Assembly (NCBI RefSeq): GCF_900167435.1
Contig: NZ_FUWS01000003.1
Span: 248,001-312,000, forward strand
Length of the DNA: 64,000 nt
Source: Marinactinospora thermotolerans DSM 45154
Lineage (GTDB): Bacteria; Actinomycetota; Actinomycetes; Streptosporangiales; Streptosporangiaceae
Direction of reading: 5' to 3'
Shown: positions 3,761 through 12,385 of the stretch, piece by piece
Numbering within the stretch: position 1 is the stretch's first letter
Layout: every line of letters begins with the position of its first letter
Made by a program: the position numbers and the translations under genes
Notes under the pieces: generated by a model
Database searches by the model: none
What the model saw: the letters and a program-made list of their open reading frames with translations, nothing else
Told to the model about the DNA's origin: nothing

Positions 3761-4489
3761 TCAACGGGCGGCGTCGAGCCTGCTTCCGCCGTAGTCGACC
3801 ACCAAGGGGATGAAGCGAAGGGACAGGCCCACAGGGAGCGCGTGCAGGGACGGCCTGTCCCGTCGCCGATTCCCCTGGTCGGAATCGACCACCACCGCCC
3901 CCGCCAACCGGTCGTCATGGCTCAGGGAGAGGACGAACTCCCGACCAGAGGCGGAACGGGCCACCGGAGCCCCCGAATCGGCGACCCCCCACGACAGGGG
4001 ACGGGGCCGGCCCAGCAGGCGGGCCGCGTCCGCGGCGGCGGCCCGGGCAGCCGCGGACGCGGCCCGCCTGCGCGCCCCACGGTCGGTCACCTCCCGCAAC
4101 GGACGCAGGGCGACGGCGCAACGCGCGGCCAGACCGCCACGCAGCACGACGGTGACGGCGTGCCCACCCACGACCGTGCTCGCCGACCACCACGGGGCGA
4201 GACGGTGGGCGTCCCCGGCCGAGGGAGGCAACCGGACCCCACCGGGCCACGTGGGGCCGGGACAGACCTCGGCCCCACGCCAGCCCACACCGTCGAATCC
4301 GCTTCCCAACGCCTTGAGGACGGCCTCCTTGACCGTCCACAGACGGGCGTAACGGAGAGGAGAGCCCTCTGCCCAGGACATCTCCTCCCGGGTGAACGCG
4401 GTGGCGCAGACCGAAGGGGTACGGGTGATCCGGTCACGCCAACCACGTATGGAGCTGATGTCGATGCCGACGAGCGCTGGAGCGGACAC
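3761..4489 (-). CDS. 4'-phosphopantetheinyl transferase, AcpS/Sfp superfamily
   Basis: Transfers phosphopantetheine from CoA to the serine of carrier proteins, here presumably the ACP domain encoded immediately upstream. GID (residues 8-10, Mg-binding Asp) and WTVKEAVLKALGSG (51-64, catalytic Glu55) are the two AcpS signatures. After them comes a second part with SLSHDDRLAGAV (188-199), a motif that ends AcpS proteins but sits early in Sfp-type two-module enzymes. At 242 residues it is twice the AcpS length and has the size of an Sfp enzyme with modules in an unusual order. The GTG start is one base after the ACP-cyclase stop, so the two genes are coupled. Last gene of the PKS operon. Confidence 0.82.
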   Translation of the reverse strand: MSAPALVGIDISSIRGWRDRITRTPSVCATAFTREEMSWAEGSPLRYARLWTVKEAVLKALGSGFDGVGWRGAEVCPGPTWPGGVRLPPSAGDAHRLAPWWSASTVVGGHAVTVVLRGGLAARCAVALRPLREVTDRGARRRAASAAARAAAADAARLLGRPRPLSWGVADSGAPVARSASGREFVLSLSHDDRLAGAVVVDSDQGNRRRDRPSLHALPVGLSLRFIPLVVDYGGSRLDAAR

Positions 4490-4490
4490 C

Positions 4491-5270
4491 TCACCCCGTC
4501 AGGGCGAGCTGGTGCCGACGCTCACATTCGCGCTTGAAGGCCGCCAGGTTCTCGGAGGAACCACGATCGATGTTGCCGCGCACCAGCTCGGCGGCCTCCT
4601 CGGGGGTGTAGCGGCCGGCGATCCGGCCGTCCACCGCCGCGCGGAAACGGTAGTCGTGGGTCGCGACCAGCTGGGTGCCGCCGTTGCGATAGGGGAAGAG
4701 CCGCCACTCGCCGGTCATCGTCTCAAACAGGGGGGCCTCGTCCAGGCGGCGGAAGGCGATGACACGGTTGGCCAGATCGATGTCACGACGGGTCAACCAC
4801 GTCTGGGTCTGGCCGTTCTCCTGTGAGAGTCGGCGGACGACCTGGTAGTCCTCACCCTCTTCGACGAGGGTGGACTCCAGGGTCGAGGGGAAGAGCCGGG
4901 CATAGCCCTCGACGTCGTAAAGGACCTCCCAGACGATTTCGAGCGGAGCGTCGATCGTCACCGAGTGTTCGGTGTGGTACATGGGGCGGTCGGCTCCTTC
5001 GGAGGTGGACGCGGAGTCGCCGGAGGGGGGTTCCTCCAGCAACCGGACAAGGTCGGAGACGGTACGCGCCCCCTTGAGCGTCTTGCCGTCGACGCGGCGG
5101 CCGCTTCCCGCGGTCACCGACGCCGCGATCTCCACCAGTTCGGTCGAATCGATGTCGAGTTCGGCCTTGAGGTCGGTCTCGGGGCGGATCTTCGCCGCGT
5201 CGATGTCCAGCGCGACGAGGGCGCGGTGCACCTTGTCGTAGACGCTGTTTCCGGACGTGCACTGGGTCAT
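4491..5270 (-). CDS. Acyl carrier protein fused to polyketide aromatase/cyclase
   Basis: Residues 1-80 form an acyl carrier protein: the phosphopantetheine site is Ser42 in ELDIDSTELVE. After a Ser/Gly/Asp-rich linker (about 81-96), residues 97-259 form a START/SRPBCC helix-grip domain of the polyketide aromatase/cyclase type (VTIDAPLEIVWEVLYDVEGY, later FKRECERRH). In most aromatic PKS clusters these are separate proteins; here the growing poly-beta-ketone carrier and the enzyme that folds and aromatises its first ring are on one chain. The ATG at 5270 has AGGAG seven nt upstream. It sits between KS-beta and the phosphopantetheinyl transferase. A frameshift joining two genes is unlikely because the linker is in frame and there is no internal start box before M97. 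Confidence 0.87.
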   Translation of the reverse strand: MTQCTSGNSVYDKVHRALVALDIDAAKIRPETDLKAELDIDSTELVEIAASVTAGSGRRVDGKTLKGARTVSDLVRLLEEPPSGDSASTSEGADRPMYHTEHSVTIDAPLEIVWEVLYDVEGYARLFPSTLESTLVEEGEDYQVVRRLSQENGQTQTWLTRRDIDLANRVIAFRRLDEAPLFETMTGEWRLFPYRNGGTQLVATHDYRFRAAVDGRIAGRYTPEEAAELVRGNIDRGSSENLAAFKRECERRHQLALTG

Positions 5271-5325
5271 TCGGGCTCCTCGGTTGTCGGGTGGGACTGT
5301 CCGTGGACACATGGCGATCCCCGGA

Positions 5326-6540
5326 TCAGGCCGCGCTGATCAGACAGGCGGCCACGGTTCCGTCGGCGCCCCGGGCGTTGACGAGTGCGTTGCGCACGGG
5401 GCGCCGACGTGGGGCGCGGTTCACCGGTGCGAGATGGTGGTCCGTGGCCCCGGATTCAGTGGGGGAGGAGGCGATCGCGGGCGTGACGCCATGGCGTATG
5501 GCCAGCAGGGCGCCGGCCGCCTCGACCGCGGCCGCCGCACCGAGCAGATGCCCGGTGACCGGTTTGATGGTGGTCTGCCCGCGACGGTCACCGGCCGGGC
5601 CGAGAGTGGACTCCAGGACGGCCAGCTCGGCCTCGTCGGCGGCGACGGTGCCCTGGGCGTCCAGGCCGACGTAGTCGACCAGGTCGGGACTGATGCCCGC
5701 CTCGGATACGGCGGTGCTGATCACCCGGGACAGCGCCCGCCGCCCGGGCCCGGCGAAGACCTCGTTCTGGCGGGCACGGCCCACCCCGAAGCCGGAGACG
5801 CGCGCGTGGACGCGGGCACCACGCGCGTGCGCGGATTCGGCGTCCTCCAAGACGAGGAAGACCGCACCCTCCCCGACGCAGAAGCCGTTCGCCCGTGAGT
5901 CGAACGGCAGGTAGCCGGTGGGGCTCGTCCGCCCGCCGTTGGTGCAGAAGGTGTAGGCGTAGGGGGTGATGGGGGCTTCGGCGCCACCGCACAGCATCAC
6001 GCGGGCCCGGCCCTCCTGGATGGCGCGCATGCCGTAGCCGATGGCCAGGGCGCTGCCGGCGGTGTCGGCCGAGACGGTCTTGCTGAACCCCTTGAGACCG
6101 CGCGCGATGGTGACCTGTCCCTGCGCCGCGGTGGGGAACCAGGCCGACGCGATGTAGGGGCTGACGCCGGTGTAGCCCTGGGTGTACAGGCGGCGCAGGC
6201 TGGGTTCGGTGATCTCCCAGCCGGCGTACATGTTCCCCAGGTAGACGCCGATGTCGCCGGCGGGGCCGTCGGGGGAGAGCCCGGCGTCGGCCAGGGCGGA
6301 GTCGGCGGCGGCCAGGGCCAGCGCGCTGAAGCGGTCCATCCGTTTACGCAGTCGGTTGGGCAGCGCCCCGAGCGCCTCGTCGGCGACGACGCCCGCCCGG
6401 GGGCAGGTGTGCCCGGTGGTGTCGAAGCGATCGATGGGCGCGACCTGGCTGTGTCCGGCCACGGCCAGGTCCCACAACTCGTCGGGCCGATGGGCCCCTG
6501 GCAGGGTGATCCCCATGCCGGTGATGACGACTTGACGCAT
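5326..6540 (-). CDS. Type II PKS ketosynthase beta subunit / chain length factor
   Basis: A 404-residue thiolase-fold protein that pairs with KS-alpha and helps set chain length. The active-site cysteine is absent: the aligned position is Thr160 in SADTAGSALA. Many chain length factors carry Gln there. The first catalytic histidine is Gln296 (DAQGTVAAD) while the second, His331 (TGHLLGAAA), is kept. It follows KS-alpha with 14 bases between stop and start and has a strong GAAGGAGACGAGG box before the ATG. Phylogenetic placement is needed to predict product length. Confidence 0.92.
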   Translation of the reverse strand: MRQVVITGMGITLPGAHRPDELWDLAVAGHSQVAPIDRFDTTGHTCPRAGVVADEALGALPNRLRKRMDRFSALALAAADSALADAGLSPDGPAGDIGVYLGNMYAGWEITEPSLRRLYTQGYTGVSPYIASAWFPTAAQGQVTIARGLKGFSKTVSADTAGSALAIGYGMRAIQEGRARVMLCGGAEAPITPYAYTFCTNGGRTSPTGYLPFDSRANGFCVGEGAVFLVLEDAESAHARGARVHARVSGFGVGRARQNEVFAGPGRRALSRVISTAVSEAGISPDLVDYVGLDAQGTVAADEAELAVLESTLGPAGDRRGQTTIKPVTGHLLGAAAAVEAAGALLAIRHGVTPAIASSPTESGATDHHLAPVNRAPRRRPVRNALVNARGADGTVAACLISAA

Positions 6541-6554
6541 CCTCGTCTCCTTCT

Positions 6555-7796
6555 TCACACGGCACCGAGCACGACAGTGGAGTGAATGCCGCCGAACCCG
6601 CTGGACAGGCTGGCGATGACGCCGGGATCGGCCTCGCGCGCCGTGTTGGGCACGTAGTCGAGGTCGCAGTACCGGTCGGCTTCGAACAGATTGATGGTGG
6701 GAGGAAGCACGCCGTCGCGTAGGGCCAGGGCCGAGGCCACGAACTCCAGCGCGTTGGCCGCGGCCAGCGCGTGGCCGACCATGGACTTGGTGGAGCTGAC
6801 CGGGGTGGTCCGGGCGTGTGCGCCCAGGACGCTCTTGATGGCGTTGGTCTCGCAGACGTCGTTCTGCGGGGTGGAGCTGCCGTGGGCGTTGATGTAGCCC
6901 ACGCGCTCCGGTCCGCAGCGGGCGTCCTCCAACGCCAGCCGGAAGGAGCGCGCCAGGTCGGCGCCGTCGAAGTCGAGGTCGGTCATGTGGAAGGCGTTGT
7001 TGACGCTGCCGTAGCCGAGAACCTCGCCGAGCACGGTCGCCCCGCGGGCCCGCGCGTGCTCCCACTCCTCCAGTACGGCCAGCCCCGCCCCCTCGGCGAG
7101 CACGAAACCGTCGCGGTCGCGTTCGAAGGGACGTGAGGCGTGCTCGGGGTCGTCGTTGCGCACGGACAGCGCCCCGATGACGTCGAAGCAGGCCACCACG
7201 AAGGGGCTGACGGGGGCCTCGGCGCCGCCGGCCAGCATCACGTCCGCGTCACCGCGCCGGATCGCGTCCAGGGCGAAGCCGATGGCGTCGTTGCCGCCGG
7301 TGCAGCCGGTGGTGAGCGTGGCGCACACCCCCTCGAAACCGTAGGCGTCGGCGATGACGCTGCCGGGTGTGGCGAAGGTGGCGGCGCGGTGCAGCTGGGG
7401 ATGGGCGGCCCGGACGTCGATCGGTCCGGTGCCCCCGGCCGTGATGTCGGCGAAGTGCTCGGTCATGAAGATGCCGCCGATGGCGTTGGACACGGCCACG
7501 CCGATGCGGTCGGGGCTGACCCGGGGGTCGGGAAGCCCAGCGGAGGCCAGGGCCTCGTCGGCGGCGATCTGGGCCATGCGTACCACGCGGTCTTCGCCGT
7601 CGGGGTCCTCGGCCGCACCCGAGGGAAGCGAGGGATGGTCGACCTGTCCGGCGATGCGGGAGTGGTGGCCGGAGGGATCGAAGGCGGTGATGCGGGAGAT
7701 CGCGCCCTGCCCCTCCCAAAGGGCTCGGGCGTACTCCTTCACGCCCGTTCCGTTCGGGGCGAGTACTCCGAGACCGGTGATGGCGACTCTGCGCAT
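6555..7796 (-). CDS. Type II PKS ketosynthase alpha subunit
   Basis: A 413-residue beta-ketoacyl synthase that condenses malonyl units on the ACP. The full catalytic triad is visible: Cys165 (TTGCTGGND), His305 (NAHGSSTPQND) and His342 (KSMVGHALAAAN). The N terminus MRRVAITGLGVLAPNG is typical of actinobacterial type II KS-alpha. The TTGCTGGND context, with Asn before Asp, differs from the GLD form usual in classical aromatic clusters. The ATG has AAGGAA about 8 nt upstream. No ketoreductase or dehydratase gene is visible nearby, which argues for a non-reduced aromatic product unless such enzymes come from elsewhere. Confidence 0.94.
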   Translation of the reverse strand: MRRVAITGLGVLAPNGTGVKEYARALWEGQGAISRITAFDPSGHHSRIAGQVDHPSLPSGAAEDPDGEDRVVRMAQIAADEALASAGLPDPRVSPDRIGVAVSNAIGGIFMTEHFADITAGGTGPIDVRAAHPQLHRAATFATPGSVIADAYGFEGVCATLTTGCTGGNDAIGFALDAIRRGDADVMLAGGAEAPVSPFVVACFDVIGALSVRNDDPEHASRPFERDRDGFVLAEGAGLAVLEEWEHARARGATVLGEVLGYGSVNNAFHMTDLDFDGADLARSFRLALEDARCGPERVGYINAHGSSTPQNDVCETNAIKSVLGAHARTTPVSSTKSMVGHALAAANALEFVASALALRDGVLPPTINLFEADRYCDLDYVPNTAREADPGVIASLSSGFGGIHSTVVLGAV

Positions 7797-7941
7797 TGGG
7801 TTTCCTTGGGTCTGGGGCCGCCGTGCGCGGCCCGGGGGCGATGGGTGGGGGATGACCGCCGAGGGGCGGAACGCGGGACGGGGGAGTGCCGGGGGCCGCG
7901 CGCGTGGGGAGAGGGGTGGGCCACGGGGGCGGGAGGGGGGA

Positions 7942-8898
7942 TCAGCCGACGGGAAGCCGGGTCGCCGGGTCGGTGCCGAAGCGGTGAGCCAGGGCAGGGA
8001 GGTCGGGCCACGCCCGGCAGTTGGCCACGGGCCAGGAGCGGTCGACGCGGCGTAGGAGACCGCGCAGCACCCGGCCCGGGCCCATCTCGACCGCGCCGTC
8101 GGGGCACAACCGGAGGAGGGTGGTCGCGGTCCGCTCCCATTGGACCGGGGCGGTGATCTGGCCGCGCAGCAGCTCGCGATAGGTGTCGACATCCTCGACC
8201 AACCCGCCGGTGATGCTCGAGACCATGGGCGTGTGTCCCGGGCGCAGGGGGAGCGTGTCGACGACGGGCGCGAACTCCTGTTGAGCGGCGGCCATCAGCG
8301 GGGAATGGAAGGCCCCGGCCACGGGGAGTCTCTGGTAGCCGGCCGCCCCCGCGGCGAGCAACGGCTCCTCGAGGGAGGAGACCTCCGCACTGGGGCCCGA
8401 CAGGACGACCTGGCCGGGGCCGTTGACGTTGGCGACGACCACGTCGGAACCGGACGGCAGGAGCGGGGCGACCCGTTCGACGTCCAGACCGATGACCGCG
8501 GCCATCGCGCCGGGGGAGGAGACGCAGCAGCGTTCCATGGCCTGGGCCCGCAGGACCACGGCCCGCGTCGCGGAGGCGAGGTCGAGCCAGCCGCCCGCGA
8601 CGAGCGCGCTGAACTCGCCGAGGCTGTGCCCCGCGACCGCGGCGGGGCGGAACCCGCGTTCGGCGGCGAGCTCGGCGACCGCGACCGAGACCGCGAAGAC
8701 GGTGGCCTGGGTCGTGACGGTCGCGCCGAGCCGCTCGGCGGGACCGTGCAGCATGGCGCCGGTGAGGTCGGAGCGGGTGATCTCCTCGGCGAGGCGCAGG
8801 GCGCGGCGCAGGGACGGAGAGCGCTCTAACAGGTCGGCCCCCATCCCGGGGGACTGGCTCCCCTGACCAGGGAACACAAAGGCGATTTCGGTGGCCAC
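7942..8898 (-). CDS. ACP S-malonyltransferase
   Basis: A 318-residue acyltransferase of the FabD fold that loads malonyl from malonyl-CoA onto the ACP. GQGSQ (11-15) opens the fold, GHSLGEFSALV carries nucleophile Ser92, and GAFHSPLM carries His198. The GTG start at 8898 (VATEIAFVFPGQGSQ) follows a GGAGAGGG box; an ATG 57 bases upstream would add an unlikely Pro/Gly-rich leader that overlaps the promoter. It is the first gene of the PKS operon, 145 bases before KS-alpha. Many type II PKS operons lack their own malonyltransferase and borrow that of fatty acid synthesis, so a dedicated copy is notable. Confidence 0.93.
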   Translation of the reverse strand: MATEIAFVFPGQGSQSPGMGADLLERSPSLRRALRLAEEITRSDLTGAMLHGPAERLGATVTTQATVFAVSVAVAELAAERGFRPAAVAGHSLGEFSALVAGGWLDLASATRAVVLRAQAMERCCVSSPGAMAAVIGLDVERVAPLLPSGSDVVVANVNGPGQVVLSGPSAEVSSLEEPLLAAGAAGYQRLPVAGAFHSPLMAAAQQEFAPVVDTLPLRPGHTPMVSSITGGLVEDVDTYRELLRGQITAPVQWERTATTLLRLCPDGAVEMGPGRVLRGLLRRVDRSWPVANCRAWPDLPALAHRFGTDPATRLPVG

Positions 8899-8953
8899 CG
8901 ATCCCTCTCCGGCTGGTGCGACAGGACATGGCGTTCCGCCACCGCGGAACGCC

Positions 8954-9001
8954 ATCAGCTTTACAAACGATCAGCTTCCTTGTCAATCAGCTTTACTGAC
9001 G
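8954..9001. repeat. Three direct repeats with 16-bp period in the PKS/marR promoter region
   Basis: ATCAGCTTTAC occurs at 8954-8964 and 8986-8996, and ATCAGCTT at 8970-8977, so the three copies start exactly 16 bp apart. They cover the putative -35 and -10 of the PKS operon. This is a good candidate operator for the adjacent MarR protein or another regulator. Helically phased sites would be nearer 10 or 21 bp, so 16 bp is unusual. Confidence 0.6.
8958..8986 (-). promoter_or_regulatory. Putative sigma-70-type promoter of the PKS operon
   Basis: On the minus strand a perfect TTGACA (8986-8981) is followed after 17 bp by TAAAGC (8963-8958). The start codon of the malonyltransferase is about 60 bases downstream. 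The -35 match is strong and the -10 match weak, which suits a regulated promoter. It is overlapped by the 16-bp-period repeats. Confidence 0.5.
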
Positions 9002-9151: not shown

Positions 9152-9631
9152 GTGCGATCGAGCGAGCAGGCACTGGCGGGGGACCGGGAGGCCACCTCCG
9201 GCGAAGCAGTGGTCTCCCTCCTGGCCCGGGTGACCCGTGTCGCGGTGCGCGAACTGGACGCCGAGCTGCGTCCCCACAACCTCCGGTCGCGTGACGTCGG
9301 GGTGCTGACGCTCATCGAATCCGCCGGCCCGCGCTCCCAGCAGGACATCGGCCGGGAACTGGGCATCGACCGCACCAGCATGGTCGGGATCATCGATCAC
9401 CTGACAGGTCTCGGCCTGGTCGAACGTGTCCGCGACCCCCACGACCGTCGTCGGTACGCCGTGAGTCTCACCGCCGAGGGCGAACGGCTCCAGCGCGAGG
9501 TGCTCCGGCCGCTCGGCGCCGGCGTCGACGCCCGGCTACTGGCCGGCCTGGACTCGGCGCAGCGCACCGTACTGCGCCAGACCCTGGAGCTCCTGGCGCG
9601 GGGCGACGATCACGGGAACGGGCAGACGTAG
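9152..9631 (+). CDS. MarR-family transcriptional regulator
   Basis: A 159-residue winged-helix protein. The recognition region RSQQDIGRELGIDRTSMVGIIDHLTGLGLV and the wing ERVRDPHDRRRYAVSLTAEG are classic MarR. It acts as a dimer, normally a ligand-released repressor. The gene is divergent from the PKS operon across 250 bp with direct repeats, so it probably controls that operon and itself. The GTG start at 9152 has AAGGTGA upstream. Its last 22 bases overlap the end of the convergent gene behind it. Confidence 0.9.
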   Translation: MRSSEQALAGDREATSGEAVVSLLARVTRVAVRELDAELRPHNLRSRDVGVLTLIESAGPRSQQDIGRELGIDRTSMVGIIDHLTGLGLVERVRDPHDRRRYAVSLTAEGERLQREVLRPLGAGVDARLLAGLDSAQRTVLRQTLELLARGDDHGNGQT

Positions 9632-10722
9632 TCGGGTCCCGTGACCGCGTCCCAGGAGGACGCAGCGCCAGGGCACACCACCCGCACACTGCCCAGGCCG
9701 GGGCAGTCCCACGGAGAGACGAGCAGGGGTTCGCCGCCGAATCTGAGCTCGGCGAGGGAGGTCCAGTAGCGGGCTTCTTCGAGGGGGGCGAAGGCGCGGG
9801 GCGGGGCGTCACCGCAGTGATGGTCCAGGAATTCCAGATATTCCCGCGTGCAGTGCCAGCCGGCCAGCCGGCGTGCCCGGAGCGGGAAGGAGGAGCCCGA
9901 GACAGGGATGGCGCGTTTCTCGACACAGCGCAGCACGGCGCCGCGCAGGGCCGCGTCGAGCCCCGGACCGACGGCCGTGCCCCAGGTGCCGGAGGTGCGG
10001 TCCGCGTGGTGCAGGACCACGAGGGCCATCGCGAACTCGAATCCGCGCAGCGCGTAGCCGGACACGGACAACCCCGCCGCGCGGGCCTCGGCGCGAGCGG
10101 CCTCGGGCAGGGCGGCCTCGGCCTCCTCGTGCACGGGGACGAGGACGGGGGTGGGGCGCCGCCACCACCGCATCGCCACGTCGATCGCCATGACCTCGGC
10201 CACGGCGGTCTCCACCTGCCGGGGGGAGACCGCGTCGATCTCGGTGGCGTCGATGGCGCCCAGCAGTTCCTCCTCGGGGAGGCGGGACCGGCCGGCCGGT
10301 CCGAGCACGGCCCGCGGCTCCAGTGTGTATCTGTTTCCGCTCAGCGCGCCCCAGGCGGTGATCCCCCCGTCCGCGAGGGTCCGATGGTGCCGGTCGGGGG
10401 CGTCGGCCGGCACCGCCGTCCCCCGAGCCGGGTTGCGCCCGGGGAAACGGCCGATGATGCGCATCCTGCGGCGGGCTTCGCGCAGCGCCTCGTCGGCGGA
10501 GAGGGCCGCGGCGACGGTTCCGTGGCCCACGGCCCCGTCGAGACGCCGGGCGAAGGCGAGGAAGACCCCCGTGAGAGGGCTCTCGACCGTCTCGGCCGTG
10601 GGGTCTCCGCAAGAGGAGCCGGACGGGACGTGGGTGAGGGGAGGGCCGTCACCGGTGATCCCGCCGCGGCCACCGGAGAACACGGTCTCGCGCGTTCGTG
10701 TCGGTTCGAAATGGAAATACAT
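9610..10722 (-). CDS. Degenerate YcaO-like protein
   Basis: A 370-residue protein whose layout follows YcaO domains: SPLTGVF near the N terminus, a DEALREARRRM helix, a VETAVAEVMAIDVAMRWW helix where active proteins read roughly A..al.EviERDA..W, and DAALRGAVLRCVEKRA where they read A...AL.E..Q.R. In each the acidic or glutamine residues that bind ATP-Mg in catalytic YcaO enzymes are replaced (for example ExxE becomes ExxA). If the assignment is right it is a divergent, perhaps non-catalytic partner. Catalytic relatives activate peptide amides in RiPP biosynthesis. No cyclodehydratase partner or clear precursor peptide was seen. ATG preceded by GGGGGA. Confidence 0.5.
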   Translation of the reverse strand: MYFHFEPTRTRETVFSGGRGGITGDGPPLTHVPSGSSCGDPTAETVESPLTGVFLAFARRLDGAVGHGTVAAALSADEALREARRRMRIIGRFPGRNPARGTAVPADAPDRHHRTLADGGITAWGALSGNRYTLEPRAVLGPAGRSRLPEEELLGAIDATEIDAVSPRQVETAVAEVMAIDVAMRWWRRPTPVLVPVHEEAEAALPEAARAEARAAGLSVSGYALRGFEFAMALVVLHHADRTSGTWGTAVGPGLDAALRGAVLRCVEKRAIPVSGSSFPLRARRLAGWHCTREYLEFLDHHCGDAPPRAFAPLEEARYWTSLAELRFGGEPLLVSPWDCPGLGSVRVVCPGAASSWDAVTGPDYVCPFP

Positions 10723-11378: not shown

Positions 11379-12128
11379 TCACATCCGGTCGACGGAGCGC
11401 GCGCCGGCCTCGGCGACCGTCCGCTGCGCCGCCGCGACGATCGCGGTGAGCCGATCGTGGTGGGCTCCCGGCCAGTAGAGGCGGTCGCAGTCCAGGCAGC
11501 GGGCGAAGGCGTCGTAGGTCGCCCGCGTCCCCTCCTCCAACCGGCGCTCCACCTCGCCCTTGCCCACGTGCTCCAGGGGCCCGTTGCAGGCGGTACAGCG
11601 GGTCCAGGGCGCCAGCGGCGGGGCGAAACGGCCCAGGACGTCGTGGAACTGCTCGTCCGGGCGGGTGCCGCGGACGTGGGCGCCGGCCCACAGCGGTCGC
11701 CGGCGCAGCAGGCCCCGGTCACGGGTGAGCAGGATCCTGCGCTCGGCGTTGGCCTCCTCCACCAGTACGTCGTCGTCCCGGTCGTTGTGGTAGGTGGTGT
11801 CCAGACCCACCAGGCGCAACCGTCGGGCCAGTGTCCCCAGGTGGACGTCGAGGAGGAAACGGGGCGGGGAGAAGGGCAGCGGCTGGGGACGGGGGACCGG
11901 AAGGACCTCCACGGTGTCGCCGGAGGCGGGACGGTGGGAGGGGGCGACGGGACGGCCGGCCACACGGAGTCCGCCGACCTCGGGAAGGGGGACGCCGGCC
12001 GATTCGACCACGTGCCCCAGCGACGAGGTCCCGTCATAGGGGACGTGGACGTCGGCATACCGGTGCCGGGGCGGCAGGAAGAACCGGAGCTCCTCCGCCA
12101 CGCGCAGGCACAGCTGCTGGGGCTCCAT
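11379..12128 (-). CDS. Mut7-C RNase-domain protein with N-terminal ubiquitin-like domain
   Basis: A 249-residue protein. Residues about 1-85 match the Mut7-C ubiquitin-like fold; residues about 90-245 match the Mut7-C (PIN-like) RNase domain, with FLLDVHLGTLARRLRLVGLD (acidic Asp94) and ILLTRDRGLLRR (Asp137) as the presumed metal-binding sites. A zinc ribbon is formed by C178xxC181 and C211xxC214. Bacterial members are presumed ribonucleases of unknown target. The ATG at 12128 is taken instead of one 15 codons upstream because of a GGGGTG box and because homology begins there. It is followed by a hairpin. Confidence 0.85.
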   Translation of the reverse strand: MEPQQLCLRVAEELRFFLPPRHRYADVHVPYDGTSSLGHVVESAGVPLPEVGGLRVAGRPVAPSHRPASGDTVEVLPVPRPQPLPFSPPRFLLDVHLGTLARRLRLVGLDTTYHNDRDDDVLVEEANAERRILLTRDRGLLRRRPLWAGAHVRGTRPDEQFHDVLGRFAPPLAPWTRCTACNGPLEHVGKGEVERRLEEGTRATYDAFARCLDCDRLYWPGAHHDRLTAIVAAAQRTVAEAGARSVDRM

Positions 12129-12169
12129 CACCCCAGCATGCCATGCCGCCGCGGAGGGGGGCCGTTCCA

Positions 12170-12385
12170 TCAACGCCCGCCCGACATGAAGGCGGCGAAC
12201 TCCTCCAGGGAGATGCGCCCGTCCCCGTCTCCGTCCATGTCGCGGACGGCGCGCTCGGCGCGTTCGTCGGTGATCGCCTCGCCGAGGACCTCCATGAGCC
12301 GTTTGAGCTCCGCCGCGGAGATGCGCCCGTCGTCGTCGGAGTCGACGAGGTCGAACGTCGCCGCGTATTCGTCCGTGCCCGCCAC
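12170..12385 (-). CDS. Small EF-hand calcium-binding protein
   Basis: A 71-residue calmodulin-like protein with two canonical EF-hand loops: residues 15-26 (DSDDDGRISAAE) and 51-62 (DGDGDGRISLEE), each with the DxDxDG pattern and a glutamate at position 12. There is no signal peptide, so it is cytosolic. Small EF-hand proteins (calerythrin/CabB-like) are typical of streptomycetes and relatives and are thought to buffer or sense calcium. GTG start with AGGGAG about 11 nt upstream. It lies between the O-methyltransferase and Mut7-C genes on the same strand, with short gaps on both sides. Confidence 0.92.
   Translation of the reverse strand: MAGTDEYAATFDLVDSDDDGRISAAELKRLMEVLGEAITDERAERAVRDMDGDGDGRISLEEFAAFMSGGR

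Follow-up and report, generated by a model that had tools for sequence, protein, structure and literature searches.

Within a 64,000-nt stretch of the Marinactinospora thermotolerans DSM 45154 genome (contig NZ_FUWS01000003.1, positions 248,001 to 312,000; the whole stretch is called the window here), a gene lying close to a polyketide synthase (PKS) gene set encodes a YcaO-like protein that we label P0001. We think it probable that P0001 is a YcaO pseudoenzyme, a non-catalytic binding or adaptor protein that would have lost its activity. Two observations point this way: most of the ATP-binding residues are gone, and the genes of its relatives neighbour those of a regulator and of short repeat peptides. 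The literature presents YcaO proteins as amide activators that depend on ATP, and according to a 2015 survey the ATP pocket is retained even in the unassigned ones (PMC4603692).

Searches with P0001 on its own found no YcaO match in Pfam at E ≤ 1 and no YcaO among NCBIfam or PDB sequences. The family sequences were collected in alignment A1, which holds 34 of the 36 members described below (two Microbispora members are absent from it). Four of these 34 matched PF02624 individually, the best with an E value of 5e-4, and the other 30, P0001 among them, fell below detection; nothing among the PDB sequences matched the A1 profile. Compared profile to profile with an alignment of 15 true YcaOs (hhalign), the family alignment gave an E value of 1.6e-5 and a probability of 79 over columns 112-351.

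We then turned to structure prediction. The AlphaFold2 model of P0001 had a predicted local distance difference test score (pLDDT) of 71.6 and a predicted template modelling score (pTM) of 0.75. All 40 of its Foldseek matches at E ≤ 0.001 were YcaO chains. VIA-align placed it on McbD (6gos_D) with a Z score of 20.0 (304 residues, 5.1 Å) and on the Methanopyrus kandleri YcaO (6cib_E), also with a Z score of 20.0 (279 residues, 4.1 Å), the first unrelated row having a Z score of 6.8. The YcaO layout of the model spans residues ~32-370. For a core member of the family, the Nonomuraea protein of locus L047, the model scored higher (pLDDT 82.4, pTM 0.87); its 19 Foldseek matches at E ≤ 0.001 were all YcaO, and VIA-align gave a Z score of 22.7 to 6ci7_B (294 residues, 3.5 Å). 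The assignment of P0001 to the YcaO fold is firm for a prediction. The original prediction had recognized a YcaO layout in the sequence and had named the PF02624 profile and a structure prediction as ways to check it; the layout is borne out by Foldseek and VIA-align on the predicted models and by the family-level hhalign comparison, while the profile finds nothing in P0001 alone.

The predicted fold, covering nearly the whole of P0001, is that of the YcaO superfamily (PF02624), which includes LynD/TruD, McbD, MusD, the archaeal YcaOs and E. coli YcaO. The homologues of P0001 share with this superfamily a conserved helix with D and WW, a VKVxxPG segment and a proline-rich tail, but differ from it in that the ATP-site acids are mostly gone. 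The stand-alone and TfuA-associated YcaOs that do not belong to thiazole/oxazole-modified microcin (TOMM) systems are like P0001 in having a YcaO fold not fused to an E1-like domain (PMC4603692).

We took the reference positions for the ATP site from our own alignment of the 15 true YcaOs (A2), drawn from 14 of 30 reference loci and completed by the YcaO of locus L001 from the same genome as P0001; 16 loci were excluded. All 15 share the acids of the EAxER and ExxERD motifs and that of the later helix (E288 of L087), and we take these two motifs and the later-helix Glu/Gln to be the YcaO ATP/Mg site. In P0001, the second Glu of ExxERD is replaced by Ala179, as it is in all 33 aligned homologues. 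The neighbouring columns of this motif are similarly uniform in the homologues, with D or E at position 176 in 32, H at position 180 in 33 and D at position 181 in 32. The aligned part of helix 1 carries no acid in P0001; in 22 of the 33 homologues position 88 is Asp, so one acid may survive in this helix in the core family. In the later helix, the hhalign register places Arg265 of P0001 in the Glu column (R in 25 homologues, L in 4 and Q in 4) and Glu268 in the Gln column (A in 32 homologues). Two MAFFT runs gave other registers for this helix, in which the canonical Glu stands opposite Lys269 or a gap in P0001.

By alignment, the conserved ATP/Mg acids of catalytic YcaOs thus appear to be mostly missing from P0001, which retains E176 and D181 alone at the corresponding positions. 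The original prediction had every acidic signature substituted. The changes at Ala179, Arg265 and Glu268 agree with this, but E176, a position with D or E in 32 of the 33 homologues, is retained, as is D181, so that "all changed" has to be softened to "most changed." Its broader suggestion of a dead YcaO is supported by the fold, by the profile comparison and by the loss of catalytic residues conserved across the 34 aligned members. The P0001 family has the predicted YcaO fold and, judged by these acids, falls outside the catalytic definition of a YcaO.

Cysteines are conserved toward the C terminus. C350 and C367 are Cys in all 33 homologues and in P0001, and C355 is Cys in 32 of the 33 and Ser in P0001. 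Azoline-forming TOMM YcaOs (D proteins) carry a PxPxP tail at the C terminus, and several reference YcaOs end in NPHPHPFP or similar. The usual LPCPVP ending of the homologues contains such a tail; the VCPFP of P0001 does not. A scan of 14 other window proteins, a subset of the window's open reading frames (ORFs), found no E1-like/Ocin-ThiF partner, precursor peptide or dehydrogenase.

We looked for further members of the family at three taxonomic levels. Within the window's GTDB family (341 genomes), searching with A1 found it in 36 and searching with P0001 alone in 35, each count including the own genome. Seven of 394 genomes drawn from the class gave a match: besides the own genome, these were five members of that GTDB family and one genome with a weak fragment. 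Among 396 drawn from the phylum, only the own genome and one weak fragment matched. When genome contigs were scanned, P0001 alone gave no match and the alignment gave 28 loci. Named records of the family come from Streptosporangium, Sphaerisporangium, Microbispora, Nonomuraea, Planobispora, Planomonospora and Planotetraspora. The matches in genomes G561, G829 and G362 were weak fragments and were excluded as members; L137, the locus around the G561 match, had no profile match at E ≤ 0.1. A further alignment, A3, comprised 32 members, without L037, L052, L055 (a fragment at a contig end) and L064 and with both Microbispora members.

Nonsynonymous-to-synonymous ratios (dN/dS), estimated by the NG86 method, which is crude and biased on high-GC genes, were 0.23-0.50 in 18 family pairs with dS <0.4, none of them including P0001. 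These values argue against neutral decay in the family. P0001 stands apart from its relatives: its end branch is 4.16 changes per site long against a median of 0.19, and 31 of 78 near-invariant positions differ in it, whereas each of the 33 other members, judged against a yardstick of its own, retains 90-100%. Besides being so divergent, the copy in the window stands alone, without the usual regulator. Its genome also holds two Pfam-level YcaO matches elsewhere. The true YcaO at L001 (G000:C22:444649-448695; PF02624 E value 3e-40) lies on the same contig ~188 kb from the P0001 gene and adjoins ORFs read as an alpha/beta hydrolase and a nitroreductase-like protein, which gives the locus the look of a TOMM cluster.

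Clustering of the ORFs at the homologue loci brought out a LuxR-type regulator, an acyl-CoA carboxylase beta subunit and a phosphopantetheinyl transferase (PPTase) other than that of the window. Pfam gives the regulator a GerE domain at 3.2e-4, a weak match that does not reach the curated cut-off, and we read the N-terminal part of the regulator as TrmB-like. Close orthologues of the regulator (64-100% identity, E ≤ 4e-133) are present in 41 of the 341 genomes, the next match dropping to 51%. The YcaO-like gene occurs in 35 of the 41 genomes with the regulator and in 1 of the 300 without it, that one being the own genome, a ratio that overstates independence because the co-occurring genera are related. 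Conversely, every one of the 35 non-window genomes carrying the YcaO-like gene has the regulator. At 33 of these 35 loci the YcaO-like gene is followed downstream by the regulator, on the same strand and no more than about 3.3 kb away, and at 17 of the 33 no MarR gene intervenes and the matched parts are 23-239 nt apart; in the two exceptions, both Streptosporangium, the regulator is on another contig. The adjacency of the regulator and the YcaO-like gene is strong. No such regulator was found in the own genome at E ≤ 0.001.

The remaining neighbours vary from locus to locus and include a tryptophan dioxygenase, a kynureninase, an AMP ligase, an aromatic amino-acid lyase and HpaB, so that the family locus neighbours different aromatic pathways. 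Among L034, L036, L045, L060 and others, some loci have the tryptophan dioxygenase, kynureninase and AMP ligase, and others have the lyase with an HpaB-type hydroxylase.

A comparison of small ORFs revealed short peptides with GTTWD or NTWP/NTWG motifs close to the regulator, L039 being one of the loci concerned. In one set (for example, L034, L035, L045, L051, L058 and L062) the peptides have 3 to 8 repeats behind a hydrophobic stretch and are possibly exported; at Sphaerisporangium-like loci they are 35-66 aa long with one motif each. Counted by eye, with many of the listed ORFs being frame shadows, a motif peptide is present at 26 of 33 loci (24 loci plus L044 and L064). No candidate was seen in L036, L047, L050, L052, L053, L056 or L061, although in the L036 genome a motif peptide accompanies the regulator, which is on a different contig (L138). 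Six regulator loci lack the YcaO-like gene; of these, L130 clearly has a motif peptide, and L132 may have a short one. Twenty loci of more distant regulators had no convincing motif peptide, and those of the motif peptides that were searched against Pfam and NCBIfam matched nothing above chance level. At L042 (12714-13115) and on the minus strand at L054, a GTTWD motif is also found N-terminally in a ~133-aa protein of the neighbouring cluster C6.

The window copy does not belong to this regulator/peptide module: the regulator is absent, there is no motif peptide within 9 kb of the P0001 gene, and only one ORF in the 64 kb of the window has the motif, as a single copy, while no ORF there has it repeated. 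As the peptide accompanies the regulator also where the YcaO-like gene is missing (L130), we treat a link between the peptide and the YcaO-like protein as a hypothesis.

Known members of the YcaO fold act on peptide substrates. P0001 keeps the predicted YcaO fold of the ATP-dependent peptide cyclodehydratases and would have lost the ATP/magnesium site; most probably it has a peptide or protein as binding partner and carries out no ATP chemistry. Loss of activity, peptide binding and an adaptor role are what we infer. In the relatives the fold would have stayed under selection once the ATP site had gone. The relatives, encoded upstream of the LuxR-type regulator and near the GTTWD/NTWP peptides, would probably serve as the binding or adaptor protein of that module. 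The window copy would then be orphaned from the regulator module, fast-evolving and placed beside an unrelated PKS. A more specific scheme, which we consider speculative and rather improbable, is a peptide-signalling module of the Streptosporangiaceae in which the ATP-free YcaO fold is the receptor or chaperone for a self-encoded GTTWD/NTWP peptide and signals to the LuxR-type regulator, the window copy being a detached relic or a re-used copy. A conserved family that has the YcaO fold but no pocket and travels with a regulator and repeat peptides would show the fold as a non-catalytic binding module. In pseudoenzymes in general (PMC5106787, PMC10211241), as in the P0001 family, the fold is kept, the catalytic residues are lost and a regulatory use is possible. 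Our literature search found no YcaO example among pseudoenzymes, and the open-licence literature yielded no description of a YcaO family without the ATP site or of GTTWD/NTWP peptides.

Several points weigh against a YcaO pseudoenzyme acting in such a module. P0001 has no Pfam YcaO match and few family members do, the hhalign probability is moderate, and E176 and D181 are still present. The dN/dS estimates are subject to the bias noted above and come from pairs without P0001. The regulator genomes belong to related genera, so that the 35 of 41 should not be counted as independent events, and the six genomes with the regulator and no YcaO-like protein include one that also has a motif peptide (L130), which indicates that the YcaO-like protein is not essential to the module. 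For the window gene, decay into a functionless remnant of the module is unlikely but a real option: its long end branch, its changes at 31 of 78 near-invariant positions, and the absence of the regulator and of a nearby motif peptide are what decay would leave, but the ORF is full length, its G+C content at third codon positions (GC3) is like that of its neighbours and the fold is still predicted, with Z at 20. Likewise, the constancy of C350, C367 and C355, the near-invariance of E/D176, D181, E292, D294, E300 and E331 in the homologues and a family dN/dS below 1 would all suit a strongly diverged YcaO that is still an enzyme, working with other residues or on another activated substrate and perhaps using the invariant C-terminal cysteines. 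We hold this to be improbable, though a real option for the window copy, since the second Glu of ExxERD is Ala throughout the family, the later-helix Glu has become Arg, Leu or Gln and the Gln has become Ala, and P0001 has also lost C355 and E292.

It is very improbable that P0001 serves the adjacent type II PKS as a tailoring or scaffold protein. The gene is adjacent, with a MarR gene between, and 4'-phosphopantetheinyl transferases also occur near the homologues, but the P0001 gene is convergent to MarR and lies outside the PKS operon. The original prediction had also named, as a check, whether the pairing with this PKS recurs in other genomes, and as a refuting result the lack of the gene beside related PKS operons; no related PKS operon turned up. 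We compared 33 homologue loci with the window genes by tblastn at 1e-5, and the window acyltransferase (AT), ketosynthase (KS), chain-length factor (CLF), acyl carrier protein (ACP)-cyclase and PPTase had no match in any of them. MarR matched in 17 and the window's acyl-CoA ligase in 16, the ligase at 26-31% identity. A search for the ACP-cyclase in 60 genomes (the own genome and 59 relatives) found its own copy and weak partial matches only (best E value 9e-16), with no related fusion in the 59 relatives. The PKS partnership was therefore rejected, as it did not recur at the homologue loci. A convergent MarR lies within 2.5 kb at 14 of 35 homologue loci, and 19 of the 35 have no MarR match within that distance; MarR as a conserved partner is unproven, the window MarR sitting on a long branch and not grouping with the convergent MarRs in the tree. 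For genome mining, a YcaO-like gene beside a PKS need not belong to that PKS.

The coordinates originally predicted for the P0001 ORF were exact; it starts with ATG, has 370 codons and has a GC3 of 0.88, similar to that of the adjacent genes. It was placed "directly behind" the PKS regulator, but the P0001 and MarR genes share no operon and run tail to tail, their 3' ends overlapping by 22 bp (9610-9631) with the P0001 stop codon inside MarR. The PKS genes lie beyond MarR as seen from the P0001 gene and are transcribed away from both, which puts the P0001 gene outside the PKS operon.

Table 1. Window positions of P0001, its aligned motifs and the nearby genes
Feature	Position	Strand	Basis or remark
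P0001, predicted YcaO-fold, ATP-site-deficient protein, 370 aa	9610..10722	-	ORF; AlphaFold2 model; Foldseek and VIA-align to YcaO structures
Helix-1 EAxER counterpart, R86-M-R-I-I-G-R92, no acid	10447..10467	-	register uncertain by about one turn
ExxERD counterpart, E176-V-M-A179-I180-D181	10180..10197	-	hhalign against 15 YcaOs, joint MAFFT, column counts
Later-helix ExxQ counterpart, R265-C-V-E268	9919..9930	-	hhalign register and counts
C350-P-G352, counterpart of VPG near the YcaO C terminus	9667..9675	-	alignment, column counts
C-terminal VCPFP of P0001	9613..9627	-	homologues mostly LPCPVP
MarR-family regulator, convergent with the P0001 gene	9152..9631	+	Pfam MarR_2 1.6e-13
PKS AT (context)	7942..8955	-	Pfam Acyl_transf_1 1.3e-41
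PKS KS (context)	6555..7796	-	Pfam ketoacyl-synt 4.3e-40; start taken from sequence
Second ketosynthase-like, CLF-like protein (context)	5326..6540	-	Pfam ketoacyl-synt 2e-35; start taken from sequence
ACP-cyclase fusion (context)	4491..5270	-	Pfam PP-binding and Polyketide_cyc2
PPTase (context)	3761..4489	-	Pfam ACPS 6.1e-12

The PKS set of the window (3761-8955, minus strand) is compact, and its CLF-like protein apparently lacks the active-site Cys. On its other side, the P0001 gene adjoins a gene for a Mut7-C RNase with a Ub-Mut7C domain (Pfam; 11379-12173, minus strand). Further along the window, at 306-2712 on the minus strand, a group of ORFs looks by eye like an arsenic operon, with a low-molecular-weight reductase, an ArsB/Acr3-like transporter and an ArsR-like regulator.
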